Below are positions 10,024 to 55,476 of a stretch of DNA of 64,000 nt, piece by piece (within the stretch, counting starts at the first letter, position 1; each line of letters opens with the position of its first letter). Under the pieces are notes generated by a model. That model was given only the letters and a program-made list of their open reading frames with translations, had not been told where the DNA came from and did not search any database. The translations under genes were made by a program, and so were the position numbers. Source of the stretch: Agrobacterium vitis (lineage in GTDB: Bacteria > Pseudomonadota > Alphaproteobacteria > Rhizobiales > Rhizobiaceae); assembly GCF_037039395.1 (NCBI RefSeq), contig NZ_CP146242.1, forward strand, positions 1,656,001-1,720,000, in the 5' to 3' direction.

Positions 10024-11448
10024 TCAATCTGGCCATTTTGCCAGCAAGGCAAGACCTTGGGCCAGCAGGCTGGCCGCCGATGCCTGATCGCTTGCCTCGA
10101 CATAGCAGCGCATTTCCGGGGCGTTGCCGGAAGGGCGGAAATGGATGACCCTGTTATCATCGAGCGTCACACGCAAACCATCGATATCGCTGGTTTCACG
10201 CACACCCCCTATAGGCGCCAGGAAACTACGCAGGTTTTCGTCCGAGCCGCGCAGAAATGCCATTAGCGCACTGCTTTTGTCCAAGGCGTAGTGTTCCAGA
10301 CGGTCGGAAAGGGCAATCGGCAGGCGATAATCTGACACCACGGCGGAGAGTGTCTGTCCGGTGCTCGCCGCTGCATAGAGCGCTGCCAGGATAGGCATAA
10401 CACAATCGCGGGTCGGCAGAGCGGCAAGCCTGCCATCATGAACGGTGAAATCGGAGGCAAGCATCACGCCGCCATTCGCCTCAAAGCCGATCACGCCAGT
10501 CTCACCCGCCGAGAGCGCCGCATTCATCGCTGCAATCACGTAAGGAGAGCCGACGCGGGTGCGTAAGACCGAAAACCCGCTTGCCGCCTCAATGCCCGAA
10601 TTGGAGGTAACAGGTGTGGCAATCACCTTGGCGCCGAGCAGAGTTGCAGTGATCAGGCCCAGCAGATCGCCGCGCAAGGGCGCGCCCTTTTCATCGGCCA
10701 CCAATGGACGGTCGGCATCGCCATCGGTGGAGACGATGGCATCCAGGCCATGTTCGCTTGACCAGGCGGAAAGTTTGCCGATTGTTTCAGGCGATACCGC
10801 CTCGGTATCAACAGGGACGAAGATCTCCGAGCGCCCCAGCGGCAGGACGGATGCGCCATAGCCCTCAAGAAGGGTCACCAGCATGTCACGCGCCACGCTG
10901 CTATGCTGATAGACGCCGATTTTCATGCCCTCAAAGGCGGCAGGGGGCAGGACAGCCATATTGCGTTTTAGAAACAGGTCTACGGCAATCGCGTATCGGT
11001 CTTCGCCTACGGCATGTTCAACGCGGTTAGCGGCCTCATCAGCCGCCAACTCAGCGGCAAGCGCTGTGATCGCCTCTTCGTCAGCCTTGTCGATTTCCCC
11101 ATCCGGCCGATAGAATTTGATGCCGTTGCGGTCGGCTGGAATGTGAGAGCCAGTAACCATCAGCGAGGCCGCACCGATCTTGCTGCCATAAAAGGCCAGC
11201 GCTGGGGTGGGAATGGCTCCACAATCGACCGGCACCAGCCCTTCCCGTTGCAGTGCGCCCATACAGGTGGCAGCGATTTCCGGGCTGGACGGGCGAAAAT
11301 CCTGGCCAATCAGCACGGTCGCGCCCGGTTTGGCATAGCCCTTGGCAAGCAGCATTCTGGCAAATGCCGTCGCATGCAGAGCCGAAACGCCGCCGACCAG
11401 CTCCAAAGAGAGACCACGCAGTCCGCTGGTGCCGAATTTTACCGCCAT
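10024..11448 (-). CDS. phosphomannomutase/phosphoglucomutase family enzyme
   Basis: Alpha-D-phosphohexomutase that interconverts hexose 1- and 6-phosphates, probably feeding GDP-mannose for surface polysaccharide. All four functional loops are present: TGSHIPADRNGIKFY with the phosphoserine near residue 100, DGDADRPL metal loop near residue 230, GFEANGG sugar loop near residue 310, and RPSGNAPEMRCYVEA phosphate-binding loop near the C terminus. Length (474) is normal. The ATG at 11448 has GAGG ten bases upstream; an in-frame TTG three codons earlier is less likely. Mannose against glucose specificity cannot be read from this. Confidence 0.9.
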   Translation of the reverse strand: MAVKFGTSGLRGLSLELVGGVSALHATAFARMLLAKGYAKPGATVLIGQDFRPSSPEIAATCMGALQREGLVPVDCGAIPTPALAFYGSKIGAASLMVTGSHIPADRNGIKFYRPDGEIDKADEEAITALAAELAADEAANRVEHAVGEDRYAIAVDLFLKRNMAVLPPAAFEGMKIGVYQHSSVARDMLVTLLEGYGASVLPLGRSEIFVPVDTEAVSPETIGKLSAWSSEHGLDAIVSTDGDADRPLVADEKGAPLRGDLLGLITATLLGAKVIATPVTSNSGIEAASGFSVLRTRVGSPYVIAAMNAALSAGETGVIGFEANGGVMLASDFTVHDGRLAALPTRDCVMPILAALYAAASTGQTLSAVVSDYRLPIALSDRLEHYALDKSSALMAFLRGSDENLRSFLAPIGGVRETSDIDGLRVTLDDNRVIHFRPSGNAPEMRCYVEASDQASAASLLAQGLALLAKWPD

Positions 11449-11633
11449 AGGGGTCAAGCCTCGCTGTCATCAGGTGATCGCCCACATCCTGCGCGGTCAT
11501 CGCGCGAGGTGCTTCGATCAACACTGTGTAAACCAATTCAAAGCAGACGAAAGCATCGTTTATGCATCGAACCGGATAAAACGGGGAACCGGATAAGACG
11601 GGATTGAAGAGCGAAGAGGCAGGAGCCAGAACG

Positions 11634-11753
11634 CAAAAGAGCCCGACGCGGGAGGAGGATGCGTCGGGCTCTTGAACTTGATCGGCAATTGGGAGGAGGA
11701 GTATCGCCGATCCCTTCAAAGCGACACTGGGAGGAGGAGTGCGTCGCTTCGAT
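11634..11753 (-). ncRNA. alpha-r14 (NfeR1/Smr14C-like) small RNA with three anti-SD hairpins
   Basis: Read on the minus strand, three consecutive hairpins each present the same loop, (T)CCTCCTCCC. Stem pairs in plus-strand positions are 11719-11725 with 11743-11749, 11680-11686 with 11706-11712, and 11638-11649 with 11661-11672. The last is a strong GC stem followed by four U, a Rho-independent terminator that also carries the loop motif. The loop is complementary to Shine-Dalgarno sequences. Repeated CCUCCUCCC loops and about 120 nt length are the hallmark of the rhizobial alpha-r14 family (S. meliloti NfeR1), post-transcriptional repressors of mRNAs, often transporter mRNAs. Ends are estimated. 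Confidence 0.85.
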
Positions 11754-11760
11754 GGTTTAA

Positions 11761-11766
11761 ATATAG
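11761..11766 (-). promoter_or_regulatory. -10 box of the small RNA promoter
   Basis: Minus-strand CTATAT (plus ATATAG) equals the alphaproteobacterial -10 consensus and lies about eight bases before the inferred 5' end of the small RNA. No clear -35 is visible at 17-18 bp (best is GATATT), so an activator may be needed. Confidence 0.55.
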
Positions 11767-11999
11767 AGGATTTCCCGAGAATGAATATCGTTAATACCGC
11801 ATTGCAGCAATGTATTCAGCGCATAGCGAAAGCGTGAAAACCCCGGCATTTTACGAAATCTATCAAGAAAAGGAGGCCTTTCACCCTCCATCGCCGATCA
11901 TCCGCTGGCGAATGAGTAGAATTTGCGCACTTCCAATCGAGACGATTGCATAGCCACCGGATCAAGCGCGGGCAGAGCTGGAGGATTGTCCACGAGGCC
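11767..11999. other. intergenic region between the small RNA and the IS
   Basis: No gene or repeat recognised. The stretch may contain upstream activating sites of the small RNA and forms the left flank of the insertion sequence. Confidence 0.4.
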
Positions 12000-13392
12000 T
12001 AGCACTACTTTGGCAGAATTGAATTTTTGCTTTGAAAGTGCTGTTGACAGTGCGGACATCGGATCTGTGCTGTCGGTATAGCAAGCGCATTGATCACGGC
12101 TCGACGGACGGCTGGCAAGGTCGGTTCAGGCGGCCCACGGCGAACTCGTCGCTTCTTTTTTTTCCCGCTTTGCAGTTTGCAATCTCTGGTGCTGGAGAAA
12201 AGCATAAGCGATCATCGTCATCAGAGCGTGCCGATGTAGGCCTTGCCACGATCGGCCCTCGAAGTGATCGAGACCGAGCTCCTCTTTCATCTGCTGATGC
12301 GCCTGTTCGCAGACCCATCTCGCCTTGATCGCGGCCGCCAGCACTTTCAATGTCGCATCGACCGGCAAGTTGGACAGGTAGTATTTGCGCTCGTCGTTTG
12401 ATCGCCATTCGCCAACTAGCCAGGCCGCTTCGCCCGGCATGTGCTGCTGTCCCTTGTCATAGATGCGCAATGCTGCAAACCGTGCGGTCAGGCGACCTTT
12501 TGTGCCGCGGCGCCAACTGACCTTCTTCCAGCTTGCAGATGCCAACATCGTTTCGGCGGCAACCGAAAGGGTGTCGGGGATCGAATGCTTGCGAGGACGG
12601 CCATGACCGGAGACGGGAAAGATCAATCCGACATCATCGGGATAAACCTTCTGATGCTTGGGGATACCGACCGCCCAGGTGAGGCCACGTTCACTTAAGC
12701 CCTTTCGGAACGCAGCCGACAGGCCGTAACCTGCGTCAGCCAGCACTGTGCCAAACCGGACACCGGTCACGATCAACCGATCGATCTCGGCAAGAGCAAT
12801 CTCCGGCTTCGTGCGAGAGGTCCGCATGTCGTCTGGGACCCCAGCCTTCGCCATGCGCTCCTGATCACCGATCCAGCTATCCGGCAGGAACAGACGCAGG
12901 CCAACCGGGACCGGCACCTCGTCTCGCGCAAGCGTCACCGACACCAGCGTCTGGCAATTTGCTCTCTTGCCCAGCATCGAGGCGTATTGCGGCGCGACTC
13001 CGACCGAATGATCACCCTTCTTCGGCAGGCCGATGTCATCAATCACCAGAAACGCATCGGATGCGCCAACGATCCTGTCCGCCTGCAGCGCGAGCTCGGC
13101 CTCAAGAGGAACAGCATCCCAAAGGCCATCGGAAATGAAATGGTGGAGGCGGTCATATTGGCCTGGAGCGAACCGTTCCGCCATCGGCTCAATACTTTTG
13201 CGGTCTCCGGGGCCGATAAGCCCCGACACATAAAGTGGACACATCTGTCGCCGTTTCTTGTGTCCAAGCTTCTCCAGAAACGGCTGCAAAAATCCTGAAA
13301 GCTCCGTATCCCAATCCACCATATCGCCCCCCAAAAGTGAGAGCGCAAATCATCTCAAACCAAGCTTGCCCGAATCTACCAAAGTAGTGCTA
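12000..13392. mobile_element. IS701-family insertion sequence, complete
   Basis: The element is bounded by near-perfect inverted repeats: TAGCACTACTTTGGCAGA at the left end (12000-12017) and the complement of TAGCACTACTTTGGTAGA at the right end (13375-13392), one mismatch in 18. It carries a single full-length transposase gene. IS701 elements typically duplicate four bases YTAR. Here the left junction reads CTAG (11999-12002) and the right CTAA (13390-13393), so the duplication is imperfect or the exact ends differ by a few bases. Confidence 0.88.
12126..13322 (-). CDS. IS701 family DDE transposase
   Basis: A 398-residue transposase, apparently intact. The RNase H-like core shows VIDDIGLPKKG (first Asp), VLADAGYG (second Asp) and, near the C terminus, WVCEQAHQQMKEELGLDHFEGRSW containing the catalytic Glu and the family's EELGLDHFEGR block. 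The N terminus (DWDTELSGFLQPFLEKLGHK, CPLYVSGLIGPGDRKS) is typical of IS701 proteins. I use the ATG at 13322; a TTG at 13334 is possible. No frameshift or internal stop is present, so the element may be active. Confidence 0.92.
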   Translation of the reverse strand: MVDWDTELSGFLQPFLEKLGHKKRRQMCPLYVSGLIGPGDRKSIEPMAERFAPGQYDRLHHFISDGLWDAVPLEAELALQADRIVGASDAFLVIDDIGLPKKGDHSVGVAPQYASMLGKRANCQTLVSVTLARDEVPVPVGLRLFLPDSWIGDQERMAKAGVPDDMRTSRTKPEIALAEIDRLIVTGVRFGTVLADAGYGLSAAFRKGLSERGLTWAVGIPKHQKVYPDDVGLIFPVSGHGRPRKHSIPDTLSVAAETMLASASWKKVSWRRGTKGRLTARFAALRIYDKGQQHMPGEAAWLVGEWRSNDERKYYLSNLPVDATLKVLAAAIKARWVCEQAHQQMKEELGLDHFEGRSWQGLHRHALMTMIAYAFLQHQRLQTAKREKKEATSSPWAA

Positions 13393-46767: not shown

Positions 46768-47247
46768 ATGGTGGAGCCTTTTGACCAATGGGACATTCAA
46801 CCGTTTGGAAAATTGAAGCCGATTCCCTATACCGCACGATTTTCACCGGCGGAATATGAAACGATAAAGAGAGGTTTCATTCCAAATTGCATGGAGGATA
46901 AGTGGGTTATTTTCTTCGCCGCTCACTCACTGTTTCTCCATCGGAGCTGGACGGGGGCGGCTGTATATCGCGTTGATTTTTCTGGAAGATCGAACACGTT
47001 TAATGTCAAAAATGCTTATGTTGACGAAGCTGTCTGTCAAAAAGACAATAACGCTTATGACGCAGCAATATTATCCTTTTTAATCGACAATATTCTTCTC
47101 TCCAGAAATTCACCGTTTCCTATGATCGAAGCAAACAAAGGTTTGCCGTCCGGTGCCTATCAGCATCATATTGCAGGCACCGGATACAGGGAAACATCTT
47201 TCAAACCTCCCCGTCCCTGGTGGAGGTTTTGGGGAAGGGACCATTAA
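46768..47247 (+). CDS. small cytosolic protein with HRSWTG motif, unknown function
   Basis: A 159-residue protein without signal peptide. KWVIFFAAHSLFLHRSWTGA near residue 50 resembles a recurring W...F/Y...HRSWTG...Y pattern in scattered bacterial proteins whose role I do not know. The middle of the gene is AT-richer than its surroundings (about 46960-47130), which may mark recent acquisition. Start ATG at 46768 has GAGG upstream. It begins 13 bases after the secreted-protein gene and its stop overlaps that of iolB, convergent. Confidence 0.7.
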   Translation: MVEPFDQWDIQPFGKLKPIPYTARFSPAEYETIKRGFIPNCMEDKWVIFFAAHSLFLHRSWTGAAVYRVDFSGRSNTFNVKNAYVDEAVCQKDNNAYDAAILSFLIDNILLSRNSPFPMIEANKGLPSGAYQHHIAGTGYRETSFKPPRPWWRFWGRDH

Positions 47248-48062
47248 GCGTTTGGCGGATTGTCGCGTTTGAAAATCCAGTCATGGTCCGGGTGGTTCTG
47301 AAAGCGCCATTTGCGCATTGGGCCTGCCATGACATTGAGATAATACATCTCATAGCCATAAGGGGCGCCACACGGATGGTGGCCCTTGGGCACCAGAACA
47401 ACATCTCCATCGGAGACGGCCATGGTTTCATCGAGCGAGCCATCTTCGGTAAAGACGCGCTGAAAGCCAAAGCCTTGAGCCGGATTCAAACGGTGATAAT
47501 AGGTCTCTTCCAGATAGGTCATATCCGGGAAATTATCTTCATCGTGCCGGTGCGGCGGATAGGATGACCAATTGCCCTGCGGGGTAAACACTTCTGTCAC
47601 CAGCAGGCTATCGGCCACATCACGCTCTTCCATGGCGATGGGGAAGATATAGCGGGTGTTGGCTCCCTTGCCGCGCTCGGTCAGCGCCACACCTGCCGGG
47701 CCAATCACCTGTGCCTCGCGGCCCGGCTTTGCGGGGGCGGTGCAGATGGCCAGTGTCACATCCGTGGTGGCTATGGCGCTCCACTCGCTGCCTGCCGGGA
47801 TATAAACGCAATGGGGCGGCTTTTTCTCAAACACATTCATGCGGTCGCCAAGCTCGCCAAAACTTTTGCCCGCACCCGAAATCTCGGCCTTGCCCTCGAC
47901 CAGCACCAGAATCACTTCCGTCTCGCCCGTCTGCTCGGCAGCCTTTTCGCCCGCCTTCAGCTTGTAAAGCCCAAAGCCGACATAGCCCCAATTGGCGCTT
48001 TCCGGGGTGATGTCATGTACTTTTCCGGCGGTGGCCGCAGGTTTGCGTAAAAGATTGGTCAT
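47244..48062 (-). CDS. iolB: 5-deoxy-glucuronate isomerase
   Basis: Isomerises 5-deoxy-glucuronate to 2-deoxy-5-keto-gluconate in myo-inositol catabolism. The 272-residue bicupin has YPPHRHDEDNFPDMTYLEETYYHR with the metal-binding histidines and glutamates near residue 170, and KGHHPCGAPYGYEMYYLNVMAG near residue 230. ATGA overlap with the small membrane gene upstream indicates co-transcription. Last gene of the iol block on this strand. Confidence 0.95.
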   Translation of the reverse strand: MTNLLRKPAATAGKVHDITPESANWGYVGFGLYKLKAGEKAAEQTGETEVILVLVEGKAEISGAGKSFGELGDRMNVFEKKPPHCVYIPAGSEWSAIATTDVTLAICTAPAKPGREAQVIGPAGVALTERGKGANTRYIFPIAMEERDVADSLLVTEVFTPQGNWSSYPPHRHDEDNFPDMTYLEETYYHRLNPAQGFGFQRVFTEDGSLDETMAVSDGDVVLVPKGHHPCGAPYGYEMYYLNVMAGPMRKWRFQNHPDHDWIFKRDNPPNA

Positions 48063-48265
48063 TTTTCATCTCCCTTTCCCGATGTTTTGTAAAACACCCA
48101 GAACAGTTGCAGACCGGCGTAAAAACCAAGCGCCAGCGAAATCATCGCCCAGGTTTGAGACCCATTATAAAGTTCGATCCCCGCCCAAACCAGCGGCACC
48201 AGCACCACCAGAATGCGCACCCAGAGCGGCTTGAAGAACGGGTGGTGGGGATCGAGAAATTGCAT
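48059..48265 (-). CDS. small membrane protein in the iol cluster
   Basis: A 68-residue protein with two hydrophobic segments (PLWVRILVVLVPLVWAGIEL and MISLALGFYAGLQLFWVFYK) and a charged tail. No assigned family. Its stop overlaps the iolB start (ATGA). Its presence between iolE and iolB suggests a role in inositol use or mere carriage in the operon; I cannot tell. The ATG at 48265 precedes the DPHHPFFKPLW segment. Confidence 0.75.
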   Translation of the reverse strand: MQFLDPHHPFFKPLWVRILVVLVPLVWAGIELYNGSQTWAMISLALGFYAGLQLFWVFYKTSGKGDEK

Positions 48266-48353
48266 TGGCTTACCTTGTGGTGAGCGGAGCGGAGTCAGCA
48301 CCGTTCCGGAGTCTGCGTGGTGGGAGTGACATAGCACAGGTCGGTGCTTGCTT

Positions 48354-48531
48354 AACCCCCCTCTGTCCTGCCGGACATCTCCCCCTCCAGGGGGAGATGG
48401 ATGTGGGGCCTACCCCTCGTTCCCTTTGTCTTTCCTGCGAAAATGCTGGGTTGACAAAATGGGTGGGCAACTCCATCCGATCTCCCCCCTTGAGGGGGAG
48501 ATGGTCGGCAGACCAGAGGGGGGTGGCCCCT
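48354..48531. repeat. large imperfect inverted repeat between iolE and the small membrane gene
   Basis: Left arm (about 48354-48399) CCCCCCTCTGTCCTGCCGG ... CATCTCCCCCTCCAGGGGGAGAT; right arm (about 48480-48531) complementary, ATCTCCCCCCTTGAGGGGGA ... GGTCGGCAGACCAGAGGGGGG. Each arm also contains an inner CTCCCCCT-AGGGGGAG hairpin. This is a common type of dispersed rhizobial palindromic element and would fold strongly in RNA inside the iol transcript. Confidence 0.85.
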
Positions 48532-48543
48532 TGCTCCGACCGA

Positions 48544-49446
48544 TTAAGCCGCCTTATCCAACCCCGCAGCCTTGGCCATGGCCTTCAACGAGGCAAGACC
48601 CAAGCTCTGGTAATCATAAGGATTACGCACATCCGGGTCCTGCTCGGCCTCAATCACCAGCCAACCTTCATAGCCATGTTCACCAGCAATTTTCAGCACG
48701 GGTGGGAAATTCACACCCCCCTCACTATCGCCCGGCACGGTGAACACGCCACGGCGCACACCCTCAAGGAAGGAGAGCTTTTCATCGCGCACCTGTTTGG
48801 CAATCACCGGGCGGATGTTTTTGGCATGGATATGACCCACGCGGCCCATATAGTTGGTTGCCACGCGCTCCGGGTTTCCGCCGCCAAACAGGCAATGGCC
48901 GGTATCCAGCAACAACTTGGCATGCGGGCCAGTGTTGGCCATCAGCTTGTCGATTTCTTCTTCGCTCTCAACAATCGTGCCCATGTGGTGGTGGTAAACC
49001 AGAGCAATGCCCTGAGACGCAGCAAATTCGGCTAGTGCTTCCACGCCTGCGCCGAAGCTTGCCCACTCAGCATCCGCCAGTTTCGGGCGATCATTCACCG
49101 GCTTGTCGTCATCGCCATGAATAGCATTCGATGTTTCGCAGACGATGATCACCTTGCTGCCCATGGCCTTCAACAGGTCCAGTGCAGGCTGCATTGCTGC
49201 CTTTTCATCCTCAATCGAATTGGTCAGCAGGTTCAGCGAATGCCAGCCGGAGACATAGCGAAGCCCGCGTGGCTCCAACACAGCCTTCAGAGCCGCTGGT
49301 TCCTGCGGGAATTTATGGCCCTTCTCAATGCCGTCGAAGCCGATTTTGGCGGTTTCATCCAGGCATTGGTCGAGGCTAATGTGGGCACCCAGCGTACGGT
49401 CATCGTCATTGGACCAGGCAATCGGGTTGGTTCCGTAGAAAATCAT
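48544..49446 (-). CDS. iolE: 2-keto-myo-inositol dehydratase
   Basis: Dehydrates scyllo-inosose (2-keto-myo-inositol) in the second step of inositol catabolism. The 300-residue TIM-barrel of the AP-endonuclease 2/xylose-isomerase superfamily has [13 protein letters not shown] at the N terminus, [39 protein letters not shown] and [25 protein letters not shown]. The ATG at 49446 is one base after the iolD stop. Confidence 0.95.
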
Positions 49447-49447
49447 C

Positions 49448-51271
49448 TTAATATCTTTCCTTGAGCGCTGCCTCGTAGCGGGCGCGAGCCTGTTGCACTT
49501 CATCTCTAGCTGATACTTCCGGCACCGCCACATCCCACCAGTACCCGCCAGCTTCAGGCGTTGGGTAAGGATCGGTGTCGATGACAATTACGGTGGGTCT
49601 TGTGGCCTCGCGAGCACTGGCCAAAGCGGTTTCCAGCTCGGCAATGGTGGTTACTTTGCTTGAATCGGCACCCATGGATGCGGCGTGGGCGGCAAAATCG
49701 ATCTGCGGAGCGTGGATATGCGAGGTATGGGCGTAGAGATTGTTAAACTCCGCCCCGCCCGTGCCCATTTGCAGCCGGTTGATGCAGCCGTAACCGCGGT
49801 TATCGGTAATGACAACGGTGATTTTCACGCCCAGAGCGCAGGCTGTGACCAGCTCGGAATTCATCATCATGTAAGAGCCGTCGCCGACCATGACGATCAC
49901 GTCACGCTCCGGCTCGGCCATCTTGATGCCCATGCCGCCGGCAATCTCATAGCCCATGCAGGAGAAGCCATATTCCATATGATAGGACAGCGGCAGTTTG
50001 GACTTCCAGAGCTGGTGCAGCTCGCCCGGCATGGTGCCAGCGGCGCACATAACCACCGTATTGTCGCGCGAGGCGCGCTGAACGGCCCCAATCACCTGCA
50101 TGTCGGTGGGCAGGCTGTTGCCATCCTTCGGTGGGGCTGTGACGGCATCGGCCTTTGCGAACCAATCGGCCTTCAGGCCTACATCCGGTGTGGCAAAACG
50201 ATGCTCACCCAGAGCTTTTGAGATCAGCTCCAGACCGATTTTCGCATCCGCCACTAAGGGCAAAGCATCATGCTTGGCGCTGTCATAAGGCTGCACATTC
50301 AGCGCCAGAATCTTGCGGTTGGGGTTCTTGAACAGCGCCCACGACCCGGTGGTAAAATCCTGAAACCGTGTGCCAACACCGATCACGAGATCCGCACCCT
50401 CGCAAATCGTGTTGGCACTGGCCGCACCCGTCACGCCGACGGGTCCGAAATTCAGCGCGTCATCCCAGGGCAGGGCCGATTTTCCGGCCTGGGTTTCCAC
50501 CACCGGAATCTGGTGTTTTTGCGCAAAATCCCCCAGGGTTTGGGTGGCACCGGAAAAATGCACGCCGCCGCCTGCAACAATTACCGGATTCTTTGCGGAT
50601 TTGATGGCGGCAATCGCCGTTTCCAGCTCAAACGAATCCGGCTGCGGACGGCGGATGTGCCAGATTTTTGGTGCAAAAAAGCTCTCAGGATAATCATAGG
50701 CTTCGGCCTGCGTATCCTGACAAAAGGCCAGTGTTACCGGGCCGCAATCGGCGGGGTCTGTCATGGTGCGAAAGGCGCGGGGAAGCGCGGTGAGCAAATG
50801 TTCGGGCCGGGAAATGCGGTCGAAATAGCGGCTGACGGGGCGAAAGCAATCATTGGCTGACATCACGCCATCATTGAAATCTTCCACCTGCTGCAACACC
50901 GGATCAGGTCCGCGATTGGCAAAGACATCACCGGGCAGAAGCAGAACCGGCAGGCGGTTAACATGCGCCAAGGCCGCCGCCGTGACCATGTTCAGCGCAC
51001 CGGGACCAATGGAGGAGGTGACAGCCATAGCGCGGCGGCGGCCAAGCTGTTTGGCATAGGCAATAGCCGCGTGCGCCATGGATTGCTCATTCTGGCCGCG
51101 CCATGTGGTGACGCTGTCTTTCGCGCCCTGCAAAGCCTCGCCCAGACCCGCAACATTGCCGTGACCAAAAATGGCCCAGACGCCAGCAATAAACGGCACG
51201 CCTTCCGGCGTCATCTGATTGGCAAGGTAGCGCACCAGAGCCTGAGCGGCTGTCAAACGCACCGTTTTCAT
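49448..51271 (-). CDS. iolD: 3D-(3,5/4)-trihydroxycyclohexane-1,2-dione hydrolase
   Basis: Thiamine diphosphate enzyme that opens the inositol-derived ring to 5-deoxy-glucuronate. At 607 residues it shows the TPP layout: N-terminal [16 protein letters not shown] and [13 protein letters not shown], central NAD/FAD-like [13 protein letters not shown], and C-terminal TPP motif [16 protein letters not shown] (GDG-x-NN type). First gene of the iolDE-orf-iolB block, with its own promoter region containing paired palindromes. Confidence 0.95.
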
Positions 51272-51292
51272 GTGTCTCTCTCCCTGAAATCC

Positions 51293-51352
51293 TAGTGCAC
51301 TGACGCATTCACTTCGTTCATGCTATAGTGCACTAGCCTTTTGTTTATGCAA
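51293..51352 (-). promoter_or_regulatory. iolD promoter with twin TAGTGCACTA operators
   Basis: TAGTGCACTG (51293-51302) and the perfect palindrome TAGTGCACTA (51326-51335) are 33 bp apart centre to centre, three helical turns. On the minus strand TTGCAT (plus 51347-51352) and ACTATA (plus 51324-51329), 17 bp apart, make a promoter with the upstream operator over its -10. This motif differs from the IolR-like site at idhA. Confidence 0.65.
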
Positions 51353-51402
51353 CGATTTTTCCAAACTCGGCTGTCGTCTCCGTTTGGATCGATGCAGTAG
51401 GA

Positions 51403-53307
51403 TCAGGCGCTTGCGCGCGCCTTATCCCAGACCTGACACAGCGATGTGTATTTACCCACCATGTCAGCAATCGCATCATCATCCGATAGTGTGCCAGCTA
51501 ACCACTTGCGAGCCGCATCGCCAAAAATAGTGCGCCCCACCGCAAAGCCCTTGACCAGATCAAAGCTGGCAGCCGTTTTAAAGCTCTCCTCCAGCTCTGC
51601 CGCTGGCGCATCCAGACCCAGCACAACAATGCCCCGCGTATAGGGATCGTTGCGGGAAATGGCGTCAACGGCGTTGGCCCAAGCGGCTTTCGTCTTCATC
51701 GGCTCCAGCTTCCACCAATCGGGGTAGACGCCAATGTCGTAGAAGCGCTGGATGATGGTCGCCGCTGTATCATCATCCGTTGACCCAACCTTGGACGGGA
51801 TAATCTCCAGCAGCATTTCAAGCCGGTTACGGCGCGCAGCCGTGAAAAGGCGTTTTACCGTATTTTCTTGGTTTTCCTTCAAGGCCGCATCATCATCGGG
51901 ATGGTAGAAGCACAAAACCTTGACCACATTTTCCACCGGCCATTCGGTGAGGCCACCAAAATCCTCGCCCAGTTCCGGCTCCAATGTCAGCGGGCGCGAG
52001 CCCGGCCATTCGACTGGGCGGCCAATCCAAAGGCCAGACCCGGATGCCTGATAGAGCGCATCACGGCCCAAACGGCTATCACACAAAATGCCATAACCGG
52101 GCTGACCATTGGCCACCTGCTGCGCGGCTTTCAGGCAGAGTTGCTTGAAGGCACCGATCCGCTCATGGGAAACACCGGCCTCATCACACATGGCTTCCAG
52201 TTGCATGCGGTGATCGAAGGCAAACACCCGCATCTGCGGCCATTCTCCATCACGATTGGTGGACCAATGCACCTGTTCCAGCGCCGCATCCTTGCGCAAA
52301 GCCTTGTTGCGAATGCCGGTTTTGAAGAAATAATCCAGCTCTTCAAGGCTGGGATAGGCGGGCGTACAGCCGTGGCGTGACACCGCAAAAGCACCGCAGG
52401 CGTTGGCATATTTCAAGGCCGTGGGCCAATCCTTACCCGTCAGCCAACCTTTCAGCAGGCCAGACATGAAGCCATCGCCAGCACCCAACACGTTGAACAC
52501 CTCAATGGGGAAGCCTTCGCCGGTCTGCCCATCATCAAGACTGTCTGGAATATTGCCATCAAACACCACGGCACCCAAAGCACCGCGCTTGCACACCAGC
52601 GTGGCCTTGGAAACATTCCGTACCGCCCGCAGCGCTTCCACCGTGTTGGTAGAGCCGCCGGCAATGTGGAATTCTTCTTCCGTGCCGACAATCAGATCAA
52701 ACCAATGCAGGGTGGATTGCAGCTTTGCCGTCACGGCCTGTGATTCGATAAAGCGGCTCTCACCATCGCCATGGCCTGCCAAACCCCAAAGGTTGGGACG
52801 GTAATCAATATCCAGCGCCGTCTTTGCACCATTCTCGCGCGCCAACCGCAGCGCTTTCAGCACCGCAGCTTCGGTATTGGGATGCGACAAATGCGTACCC
52901 GTGACGCAAACACAGCCGGATTCGGCCACAAAAGCCGGATCAATATCATCCTCGCACAAAGCCATATCGGCGCAATTTTCTCTGTAGAAAATCAAAGGAA
53001 ACTGGTGCTCATCGCGAATGCCGAGCAAAACCAGCGCCGTCAGGCGTTTGGGGTCGGTCTTGACGCCGCGCACATCCACGCCTTCGCGCACCAGCTGTTC
53101 GCGGATAAAGCGGCCCATATGCTCATCGCCCACGCGGGTGATCAGGGCAGACTTTAGACCCAACCGGGCGGTGCCTGCTGCAATATTGGTGGGGGAGCCG
53201 CCGATATATTTGTTGAAGGAGGCCATGTCTTCCAAACGGCCACCCACTTGCGCGCCGTAGAGATCAACGGACGAACGGCCGATGGTGATCAGGTCAAGTT
53301 TTGGCAC
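51403..53307 (-). CDS. iolC: 5-dehydro-2-deoxygluconokinase fused to a DUF2090 aldolase-like domain
   Basis: Two-domain protein of 634 residues. Residues 1-325 are a PfkB sugar kinase (IGRSSVDLYGAQVGG, FNKYIGGSPTNIAAGTARLG, and NVLGAGDGFMSGLLKGWL with the catalytic Asp). Residues 335-634 are DUF2090, a class I aldolase-like fold (FAFDHRMQLEAM, VLCFYHPDD, VVLGLDAPAAELEESF). It phosphorylates 2-deoxy-5-keto-gluconate; the second domain may perform the following aldol cleavage. The start is GTG at 53307 with AAGGAGG upstream. This fusion is usual in proteobacteria. Confidence 0.94.
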   Translation of the reverse strand: MPKLDLITIGRSSVDLYGAQVGGRLEDMASFNKYIGGSPTNIAAGTARLGLKSALITRVGDEHMGRFIREQLVREGVDVRGVKTDPKRLTALVLLGIRDEHQFPLIFYRENCADMALCEDDIDPAFVAESGCVCVTGTHLSHPNTEAAVLKALRLARENGAKTALDIDYRPNLWGLAGHGDGESRFIESQAVTAKLQSTLHWFDLIVGTEEEFHIAGGSTNTVEALRAVRNVSKATLVCKRGALGAVVFDGNIPDSLDDGQTGEGFPIEVFNVLGAGDGFMSGLLKGWLTGKDWPTALKYANACGAFAVSRHGCTPAYPSLEELDYFFKTGIRNKALRKDAALEQVHWSTNRDGEWPQMRVFAFDHRMQLEAMCDEAGVSHERIGAFKQLCLKAAQQVANGQPGYGILCDSRLGRDALYQASGSGLWIGRPVEWPGSRPLTLEPELGEDFGGLTEWPVENVVKVLCFYHPDDDAALKENQENTVKRLFTAARRNRLEMLLEIIPSKVGSTDDDTAATIIQRFYDIGVYPDWWKLEPMKTKAAWANAVDAISRNDPYTRGIVVLGLDAPAAELEESFKTAASFDLVKGFAVGRTIFGDAARKWLAGTLSDDDAIADMVGKYTSLCQVWDKARASA

Positions 53308-53394
53308 GCTTTCCTCCTTGGACGCGACAGGGCTTGCGTTGCCTGCCGTCAATGACCTCACTCCCGGAAGGTCATTCTATTATCGCTTAAAAAT

Positions 53395-53408
53395 GGACTA
53401 TATATTCT
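53395..53408 (-). promoter_or_regulatory. putative IolR site upstream of iolC
   Basis: GGAC-TATATA-TTCT, 88 bases before the iolC start. It matches the complement of the idhA site (GGAATATATGTTCT) in 12 of 14 positions. The reported rhizobial IolR motif is GGAA-N6-TTCC. Confidence 0.55.
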
Positions 53409-53434
53409 ATTTTTGAACCCATCAACACAAATGT

Positions 53435-54268
53435 TCAATCCTGCTGCCGGGCCGTTCCTACTGCGACAGAGAGCGCAATGGCCAGACAGAGCGTGGCAGA
53501 GAGTGAGCGGAATGCGCCAAAATCCACCTCGGCAACCGACAGGGTTATCGCCCCGAGTTTGCGAAGCGGATTGACCACCGTATCGGTAATCGCCACCACG
53601 GAAATACCTCGCGCTGAGACCTGCTCAACCAGATCCAGCGTCTCGGTCGAATACGGGGCAAAGGTAATGGCCAGCACCACATCGCCCTCGCGGATGGCAT
53701 GCTGGCTTTCCAGCTTGCCAACGCCACTGTGCAACATGGCCGGAACCGCCATTTTTTCAAAGGCATAGGCAATATAACTTGCGACTGGAAAGGAGCGGCG
53801 CAAGCCGACAATATGGATCATTCCAGCCGCGCTGAGGCAGGCCACAGCCTGTTCCAGCAGGTGCGGATCGACCGTTTGCAGCAATCCCTCCAACGACACG
53901 CGCCCCGCCTCGACAAATTCTGCCAAAAGCGCCGATGGGCTGCCAGATGCTGTTTCGCGCAAATGGTGCAGACGGGTGGAATAATCCGGCCAACCACCAA
54001 CAAAAGAATCCCGAAACAGCTTTTGCATTTCGGAAAATCCAGAAAAACCAAATATTTGGCAAAACCGCATAAAGGCAGAGGGCTGTACGCCCGCACCTTC
54101 AGCCATTTCGGCCACAGTCGAAACGGCAATACGATCTTTATTGGCGGCCACATAGTCCGCGCATTGCTTCAGCCGCTTGGGCAAGGTGTCAGACACCTGC
54201 ACCAACCGTTCTTCAAAGGCTTTAATGCTATCGGGCGCGGAGGTCTCTGCAACTGTGGTGTCAGACAT
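53435..54268 (-). CDS. iolR: RpiR-family regulator of inositol genes
   Basis: A 277-residue regulator. N-terminal RpiR helix-turn-helix (residues 20-95: RLKQCADYVAANKDRIAVST, VQPSAFMRFCQIFGFSGFSE) and C-terminal SIS sugar-phosphate-binding domain (residues 125-260: IHIVGLRRSFPVASYIAYAF, AITFAPYSTETLDLVE, VVAITDTVVNPL). In S. meliloti IolR represses idhA and iolC operons until an inositol catabolite appears. Located between iolC and divergent idhA. Confidence 0.93.
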   Translation of the reverse strand: MSDTTVAETSAPDSIKAFEERLVQVSDTLPKRLKQCADYVAANKDRIAVSTVAEMAEGAGVQPSAFMRFCQIFGFSGFSEMQKLFRDSFVGGWPDYSTRLHHLRETASGSPSALLAEFVEAGRVSLEGLLQTVDPHLLEQAVACLSAAGMIHIVGLRRSFPVASYIAYAFEKMAVPAMLHSGVGKLESQHAIREGDVVLAITFAPYSTETLDLVEQVSARGISVVAITDTVVNPLRKLGAITLSVAEVDFGAFRSLSATLCLAIALSVAVGTARQQD

Positions 54269-54360
54269 GGTTGGTTTATCGCCTCAAATTTTGCATCAAC
54301 GTCTTTGGCGGCAGTGCTCTAAACCGCCTTGACAGGAACACTATCCCAATCTAGCAAAAT

Positions 54361-54374
54361 AGAACATATATTCC
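54361..54374 (+). promoter_or_regulatory. putative IolR site in the iolR-idhA intergenic region
   Basis: AGAA-CATATA-TTCC, one mismatch from GGAA-N6-TTCC. A second partial site GGAA-CACTAT-CCCA lies at 54335-54348. They lie 93-126 bases before iolR and 113-152 before idhA, fitting shared control of both. Confidence 0.6.
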
Positions 54375-54486
54375 AAACGAGGATTGCCGCAACAGCTGAC
54401 ACCTGTCAAAAACTGCGGTGGGTTTGAGAGCGTTTAACGTGTCATGTGCTTGGCCCGAATGGTGCCAGGCCAGGGAGGAGAACATC

Positions 54487-55476
54487 ATGGTGAAGAAACT
54501 TGCCCTTCTGGGCGCGGGCCGCATTGGCAAAGTGCATGCCAAGGCCATTGGCGAGGACAAGCGCGCCCAATTGGTGGCCGTTGCAGACGCTTTCCCCGAC
54601 GCTGCCAAGGCGATTGCCGATGCTTATGGCGCAGCGGTCAAGACCATTGAAGAGATCGAAGCCGATGCCTCGATTGATGCGGTGCTGATCTGCACTCCCA
54701 CCAACACCCATTCCGACCTAATCGAGCGCTTCACTGCCGCTGGCAAGGCCGTGTTCTGCGAAAAGCCGATTGATCTGGATGTGAAGCGGGCCGAAGCCTG
54801 CGCCGAAGTCGTGCGCGCCAACGGCGGCAAGGTGATGCTGGGCTTTAACCGTCGCTTCGATCCGCATTTTCAGGCGGTTCGCAAGGCGATTGACGATGGC
54901 AAGATCGGCAAGGTTGAGATGGTCACCATCACCAGCCGCGACCCGGGTGCGCCCCCGCCAGAATATATTAAAGTGTCCGGCGGTATTTTCCGCGATATGA
55001 CCATCCATGATTTCGACATTGCCCGCTTCCTGCTGGGCGAGGAAATCACCTCCGTCATGGCATCGGCCTCGGTGCTGGTTGATCCCAAGATTGGCGAACT
55101 GGGCGACTTTGATAGCGCCAGCCTTGTGCTGACCACGGCCTCTGGCCGTCAGGCGATCATCTCCAACTCGCGGCGCGCCACCTATGGCTATGACCAGCGC
55201 ATTGAAGTGCATGGCTCGGAAGGCTCGGTGGCCGCTGAAAACCAGCGCCCGGTCTCGATTGAGATCGCCACCAAGGATGGCTACACCCGCCCGCCGCTGC
55301 ATGATTTCTTCATGACTCGTTACACTGCGGCTTATGCGGCTGAAATTTCGGCTTTCCTTGACTTTATCGAGAGCGGAAAGGCACCATCGCCATCCATCGA
55401 AGACGGCTTGATTGCGCTGAAACTGGCGGATGCAGCGGTCAAGGCTGCCAAGGAAAAGATCGTCGTTACGCTGTAA
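54487..55476 (+). CDS. idhA: inositol 2-dehydrogenase
   Basis: NAD-dependent oxidation of myo-inositol to 2-keto-myo-inositol, the first catabolic step. A GFO/IDH/MOCA protein of 329 residues: LALLGAGRIGKVHAKAI is the Rossmann motif, CEKPIDLD has the catalytic Lys, and GGIFRDMTIHDFDIARFLLG has the catalytic Asp and His. GGAGGAG precedes the ATG at 54487. Divergent from iolR. Confidence 0.95.
   Translation: MVKKLALLGAGRIGKVHAKAIGEDKRAQLVAVADAFPDAAKAIADAYGAAVKTIEEIEADASIDAVLICTPTNTHSDLIERFTAAGKAVFCEKPIDLDVKRAEACAEVVRANGGKVMLGFNRRFDPHFQAVRKAIDDGKIGKVEMVTITSRDPGAPPPEYIKVSGGIFRDMTIHDFDIARFLLGEEITSVMASASVLVDPKIGELGDFDSASLVLTTASGRQAIISNSRRATYGYDQRIEVHGSEGSVAAENQRPVSIEIATKDGYTRPPLHDFFMTRYTAAYAAEISAFLDFIESGKAPSPSIEDGLIALKLADAAVKAAKEKIVVTL

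Follow-up and report, generated by a model that had tools for sequence, protein, structure and literature searches.

The minus strand of the window (the whole 64 kb stretch of Agrobacterium vitis DNA analysed here) carries a small RNA gene, at 11634..11757, that adds a member to the alpha-r14 or "cuckoo" RNAs, a family already described, and no new category is needed to accommodate it. The Rfam covariance model of this family (ar14, RF02344) matches the gene over the full model length (1-123/123) with 121.7 bits, against a cut-off of 58.8, in agreement with the membership that an earlier note on this DNA had proposed from the sequence alone. A covariance model of our own (R1), which was built partly from the same sequence, gives 136.8 bits at the window copy. 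Judging from sequence comparisons, the gene probably encodes a free-standing, trans-acting ar14 RNA of about 124 nt that is activated by LsrB/VtlR and that would block translation at purine-rich ribosome-binding sites. In kind the locus is ordinary: the gene is conserved and its family is known, and what the analysis adds is a corrected identity and a plausible regulator.

Structure and conservation of the hairpins

Read directly from the sequence, the gene consists of three minus-strand hairpins in tandem, with different stems and with CCTCCTCCC as the loop of each. Hairpin 1 (11717..11751, loop at 11729-11737) and hairpin 2 (11680..11712, loop at 11691-11699) are found in the predicted fold and in the Rfam structure, and hairpin 3 (11639..11671, loop at 11650-11658, then TTTT) in both of these and in the sequence itself. 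There are three exact matches to CCTCCTCCC in the 64 kb window, all of them inside this RNA gene, while shuffled windows contain 0.49 on average and three copies were reached by one shuffle in 100. The predicted fold of 11780-11620 consists of the same three hairpins, with a free energy of -66.6 kcal/mol and a z of -7.57, and none of 200 shuffles was equally or more stable. The boundary of the Rfam match is 11757, whereas the end given in the earlier note, 11766, takes in the -10 element. Additionally, a frame of 212 codons that overlaps the RNA (11719-11081) was treated as mechanical.

Hairpin 3 probably doubles as an intrinsic (Rho-independent) terminator, at which the RNA would end, as suggested by its stable GC-rich stem and the TTTT that follows, in a U tract that is short (TCTTTTG). 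It is not among the matches of the terminator scan, whose limit for the loop is 8 bases, its own loop having 11.

The stems are also conserved as structures. Across 31 distinct sequences, 95.5% of cells are paired and two-sided changes occur at 20 of the 31 pairs, compared with 7.2 in shuffles, in a set that was collected with a structure model and consequently favours paired sequences. When the partner columns are slid, pairing falls to 27.7-45.6%. Conservation is strongest in hairpins 3 (100% of cells paired, two-sided change at 7 of 11 pairs) and 2 (99.4%, 8 of 10), and weaker in hairpin 1 (86.6%, 5 of 10). For the loops, the comparison covers 112 of the 114 copies found in the genus (see below), excluding two truncated at contig ends; the mean pairwise identity is 0.974 for the loop 9-mers and 0.633 for the stems, and three exact loops are present in 94 of the 112 copies, two in 15, one in 2 and none in 1. 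Thus, the earlier description of three hairpins with a common loop is borne out by the sequence, the 9-mer count and the z of the fold, and its claim that stems vary while loops are fixed by the covariation and by the comparison of loop and stem identities.

Distribution and paralogue classes

The genome to which the window belongs has five ar14 copies, all above the cut-off, and no copy was found in any of 14 control genomes. In a search of 60 genomes (its own included), matches at E 0.001 or lower occurred in 45 and scores that reached the cut-off in 37, namely all 36 genomes of the genus and 1 of the 24 from elsewhere in the order. Two genomes from other families of the order contain clusters of ar14-like matches, which are above the cut-off in G050 (C16:81994-82117 and 82203-82326) and below it in G042 (three matches, C130:31746-32772). 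The 36 genomes of the genus hold 114 copies above the cut-off, all of which were retrieved.

According to their terminator stems, these 114 copies fall into class A (36 copies, including that of the window), class B (35) and class C (41), with 2 copies unassigned. Looser class patterns were used to place L124 (of genome G026) in A and L244 in C. Class A is present in 35 of the 36 genomes, the lone exception being a genome that is 66% complete, class B also in 35 and class C in 22. The neighbouring genes agree with this division: a DUF1127 gene is located downstream of all 35 class B copies, upstream of 19 of the 41 class C copies and beside none of the 36 class A copies, and a phosphohexomutase gene is located downstream of 30 of the 36 class A copies and beside no B or C copy, in a count for which the downstream flank covered is 1 kb or longer at just 29 A loci, 4 C loci and 1 B locus. 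When 109 sequences are placed in a tree, the clade that fits class A best has all 31 A sequences (local support 0.89), that for class B all 32 (0.83), and that for class C 38 of 39 along with SmelA099 of Sinorhizobium meliloti (0.81). As the class labels use terminator stems that are also present in the tree, the tree is not independent of them, whereas the neighbouring genes are.

A further difference among copies is the number of hairpins. Three of the five copies in the genome (L002, L004 and L005) carry one more hairpin at the 5′ end, a fourth, whose loop is the same; the window copy does not have it, and a motif count finds it in 35 of the 41 class C copies. Imperfect stems escape the module counter, and where it gives 2 or 3 these values are lower bounds. 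Three- and four-hairpin forms of ar14 have already been described in passages of PMC3927594.

The earlier note had also given NfeR1 as a name of the alpha-r14 RNAs, an identity that has to be corrected for the window copy. NfeR1 of S. meliloti (SmrC14) lies between SMc02051 and tig, according to part of PMC2780559, and an S. meliloti record has two tandem copies between tig and DUF1127/trmFO, of which we infer that the one closer to trmFO is NfeR1, on the basis of coordinates in part of PMC2573895 and of its own promoter. In the genome studied here, it is the class B copy C2:3541303 that lies near tig and has a DUF1127 gene beside it. As the NfeR1-type setting belongs to that copy, whose sequence is moreover a little nearer to those of the two tandem copies of S. 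meliloti (69.1/70.7% identity, against 65.6/68.3% for the window copy), the RNA of the window is to be seen as an NfeR1 paralogue and not as an orthologue. Membership of the same family, a similar length and the 65.6/68.3% identity are what might be adduced for an orthologue that acts in an NtrBC feedback loop, but the difference in setting, the higher identity of C2:3541303, the lack of an NtrC motif at the expected place and the middling pairing with ntrB (see below) make such a role very unlikely. The motif in question, TGC-N11-GCA, is missing near -101 to -116 of the window copy, the only match, with one mismatch, being at -172 to -156, and NtrC control was rejected because the motif is not at the expected distance. 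In part of PMC10746234 this motif is reported as not evident in promoters of Agrobacterium and Brucella.

Promoter and putative LsrB/VtlR box

The RNA gene is preceded by a -10 element, CTATAT (11761..11766, minus strand), and by no consensus -35, just as had been noted earlier from the sequence, and a scan of 11500-12000 yields no sigma-70 promoter. When the window is aligned with 33 named loci (excluding L065, whose contig starts at the RNA), a conserved block is observed upstream (11791..11827, minus strand). This block contains ACATTGCTGCAAT at about -57, including a putative VtlR/LsrB box (ACAT-TGC-TG-CAA-T, 11801..11813, minus strand) that matches 6 of the 7 fixed bases of the consensus GCAT-N3-TG-N3-T given in parts of PMC7486931 and PMC8844928; the one mismatch is the missing G of GCAT. 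Directly upstream of the block there is a terminator-like hairpin (11889-11872, minus strand), with 0.7 such hairpins expected by chance in the scan.

The box was also scored upstream of the other copies, in search stretches that were picked from alignments, so the shuffle controls that follow are not blind. In class A (34 of 36 copies scored), 9 boxes match the consensus perfectly and 25 with a single mismatch, whereas only 26 of 680 shuffles come within one mismatch; 30 of the 34 boxes lie at -56 or -57, the other 4 at -48 or -49. Class C has 36 perfect boxes among 41, with one mismatch in 3 and four in 2 (shuffles, 28/820). No perfect box is seen among the 35 class B copies, 33 of which differ from the consensus by one base and 2 by two, and the distances are scattered (one mismatch or better in 140 of 1750 shuffles). 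A 15-mer motif for VtlR of Brucella, taken from part of PMC12595884, was scored as well: the window matches it at 12 of 15 positions at -57, overlapping the box, a score reached by 19 of 5000 shuffles, and the same score is attained by 20 of 35 class A copies (22/3500 in shuffles), by 28 of 41 class C copies (18/4100) and by only 1 of 35 class B copies (25/3500). The S. meliloti motif, TGCA-N6-GCAT, has two mismatches in the window promoter.

Regarding the regulator itself, the genome has a LysR-type gene after trxB whose product matches the solved LysR regulator 9hh1 with 650 bits, and the position beside trxB is the setting published for vtlR/lsrB; we take this vtlR/lsrB-like gene to be LsrB/VtlR. 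In A. tumefaciens, gel shifts have placed VtlR on three promoters (abcR1, atu1667 and vrsA), and the passages available from that account name no ar14 RNA among the VtlR targets. In S. meliloti, LsrB activates NfeR1 (PMC10746234, in part), so LsrB control of the family is not new in kind. For the window copy, LsrB/VtlR would bind the block at about -57 and activate a promoter that is devoid of a good -35. Judging by its title, a later paper on A. tumefaciens reports numerous small RNAs that are regulated by a LysR-type protein.

The copies could also be redundant, with only one of them well expressed, in which case the window copy might be silent or barely expressed. In S. meliloti, a Northern blot reliably detected only one of six NfeR1 copies under the conditions tested, as described in part of PMC7143759. 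Against such silence at this locus, however, its three loops and its stems are intact, its promoter block is conserved and its class is present in 35 of 36 genomes, and we regard the idea as highly improbable.

Candidate targets

In the proposed mechanism, each exposed CCUCCUCCC loop would pair with ribosome-binding sites of the GGGAGGAG type and shut off translation, and the repressed genes would mainly be those of transport and catabolism. The three loops of S. meliloti NfeR1 are redundant in the silencing of its targets, according to part of PMC10746234. Candidates were ranked in a pairing screen of 148 long frames taken from the window, from six 20 kb stretches and from the ntrBC stretch, i.e., a part of the genome in which the window weighs heavily. 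Starts were chosen by 16S pairing, which can place them inside a gene, as for the phosphohexomutase, and loop pairing was corrected for mRNA accessibility.

The earlier note had proposed three genes with GGAGG sites as targets, which it named glpV, glpU and idhA. The first of the 148 in the corrected ranking is idhA, the glpV-like gene is seventh, and the adjacent permease that we take to be the glpU of that note is 97th, so the support for the three proposals is mixed. By NCBIfam, idhA is the inositol 2-dehydrogenase gene iolG (421.9 bits, cut-off 355), no family is found for the gene called glpV, and the one called glpU has only families below the cut-off, mostly permeases. Two other inositol genes also rank high, iolD being 4th and iolC 11th. 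The stretch 47244-55476 of the window is an inositol catabolism cluster in which iolD, iolC and iolG are confirmed by NCBIfam. As GGAGG is present in 21 of the 148 start sites, this sequence alone does not single out targets. The best candidates among the genes that had been named would be idhA/iolG and the glpV-like gene, as far as predicted pairing goes.

These two genes were also compared between genomes, in a scoring that took in one second copy but no others, and that left out incomplete matches and the remaining distant rows. A perfect complement of the loop, of 7-8 nt, is present in all 22 same-genus best matches of idhA (24 same-genus genomes searched), and outside the genus the complement is 5, 4 and 7 nt long in the three cases scored. 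The glpV-like gene has a complement of 7-8 nt in all 21 same-genus rows scored (20 genomes) and of 6 in one outside row. The conservation of the complement in idhA may be ordinary for ribosome-binding sites.

A proven target of NfeR1 in S. meliloti is ntrB. In our screen this gene ranks 40th of 148 with the accessibility correction and 21st without it, positions that are not outstanding, and it was consequently rejected as the main target. A search based on the full 9-mer complement, GGGAGGAGG, was dropped, since it is not enriched in the genome over the reversed pattern (49 sites, 16 of them ar14 loops, vs 45). Among the 33 sites outside ar14 genes, 10 are followed, 3-15 nt further on, by a start codon with an open frame of 60 codons or more, by a rule that is loose.

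Relation to known RNAs

The window copy resembles S. meliloti NfeR1 (SmrC14, SmelC397) in its three CCUCCUCCC-loop hairpins, in its length of about 123 nt, in its CTATAT -10 and in the putative LsrB-type box upstream, and differs from it in being located upstream of a phosphohexomutase gene, in having no DUF1127 neighbour and in having no NtrC site. Two other S. meliloti RNAs are also similar. SmelA075 has three hairpins as well, its nearest genus copies by tree distance are of class A and its promoter words look similar by eye, but it has 60.5% identity to the window copy at a tree distance of 0.65, and sm7′ of S. meliloti is nearer, at 0.55. SmelA099 has the same loops and the repeated hairpin module, but it has four hairpins and falls with class C, which includes three other copies of the genome, and not with the window copy. 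Further away, CcsR1-4 and CcaF1 (DUF1127) of Rhodobacter sphaeroides represent related alphaproteobacterial anti-Shine-Dalgarno hairpin RNAs; according to the available part of their description, the four CcsR RNAs are co-transcribed with the DUF1127 message and processed from it, whereas the window copy stands alone. In the literature covered, which took in few subscription papers, we recognised nothing that deals with this locus or with the arrangement in three classes. In PMC3596533, an early prediction of Agrobacterium small RNAs, the main text as far as available contains neither "Shine" nor "CCTCC".

A wider proposal, which we make tentatively and consider rather doubtful when all its parts are taken jointly, is that the ar14 RNAs of the genus are three old paralogue classes under one LsrB/VtlR switch: one associated with the phosphohexomutase gene, one with tig and a downstream DUF1127 gene, and one with four hairpins and often an upstream DUF1127 gene. 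The class of the window would then be a fixed, DUF1127-free branch tuned to GGGAGGAG sites, such as those of idhA/iolG and the glpV-like gene, and redox or host cues would shut down the use of inositol and glycerol-phosphate. Nearly every genome examined in the genus offers a natural comparison, with paralogues of near-identical loops behind similar LsrB/VtlR-type boxes and one class that has no DUF1127 gene of the kind that accompanies many of the others. Such a comparison makes it testable whether the RNAs have separate targets despite identical loops, and whether the DUF1127 proteins are of importance to them.

Neighbouring genes

The downstream neighbour of the RNA gene encodes a phosphohexomutase of the PGM_PMM family (10024..11457, minus strand; Pfam PGM_PMM I-IV), with a likely start at the ATG at 11448. 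Every NCBIfam match of this protein is below the cut-off, and it is 93-95% identical to its counterparts in three A. vitis strains. The gene is on the same strand as the RNA, which lies 177 nt upstream, and it is downstream of 30 of the 36 class A copies in the fetched flank, observations that would suit a cis-acting leader or attenuator of the phosphohexomutase gene in place of a trans-acting RNA. However, the spacing between the RNA and the gene match is not constant (92-862 nt), and four genomes have the copy just beyond the 4 kb flank (L038, L053, L074 and L077, judged by coordinates from the genus search). RNAs of the same type are also found at other loci where the fetched flank showed no phosphohexomutase, and at its likely start the phosphohexomutase gene lacks a GGAGG and shows only weak pairing to the loop (-5.9 kcal/mol). 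The rank of this gene in the screen (68th of 148) corresponds to an internal start picked by rule and thus says little. Among the best 80 of 356 phosphohexomutase relatives, the RNA is present in the covered flank at 34 loci and, leaving aside those four, absent from it at the other 42, which include Sinorhizobium, Neorhizobium, many Rhizobium and some Agrobacterium. All things considered, cis action is extremely unlikely, and a trans-acting RNA is the reading that we prefer.

On the other side of the RNA, between it and a sulfatase-family gene, there is an insertion of the IS701 family (12000..13392, minus strand), with 18-nt inverted repeats and a transposase that matches NF033540 with 423 bits. 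Damage of the RNA locus by this element was rejected, as the insertion is about 240 nt upstream of the RNA and outside the conserved block. Of 7 loci compared, from 5 distinct genomes, 6 do not have the element at this position, and the remaining one is uninformative.
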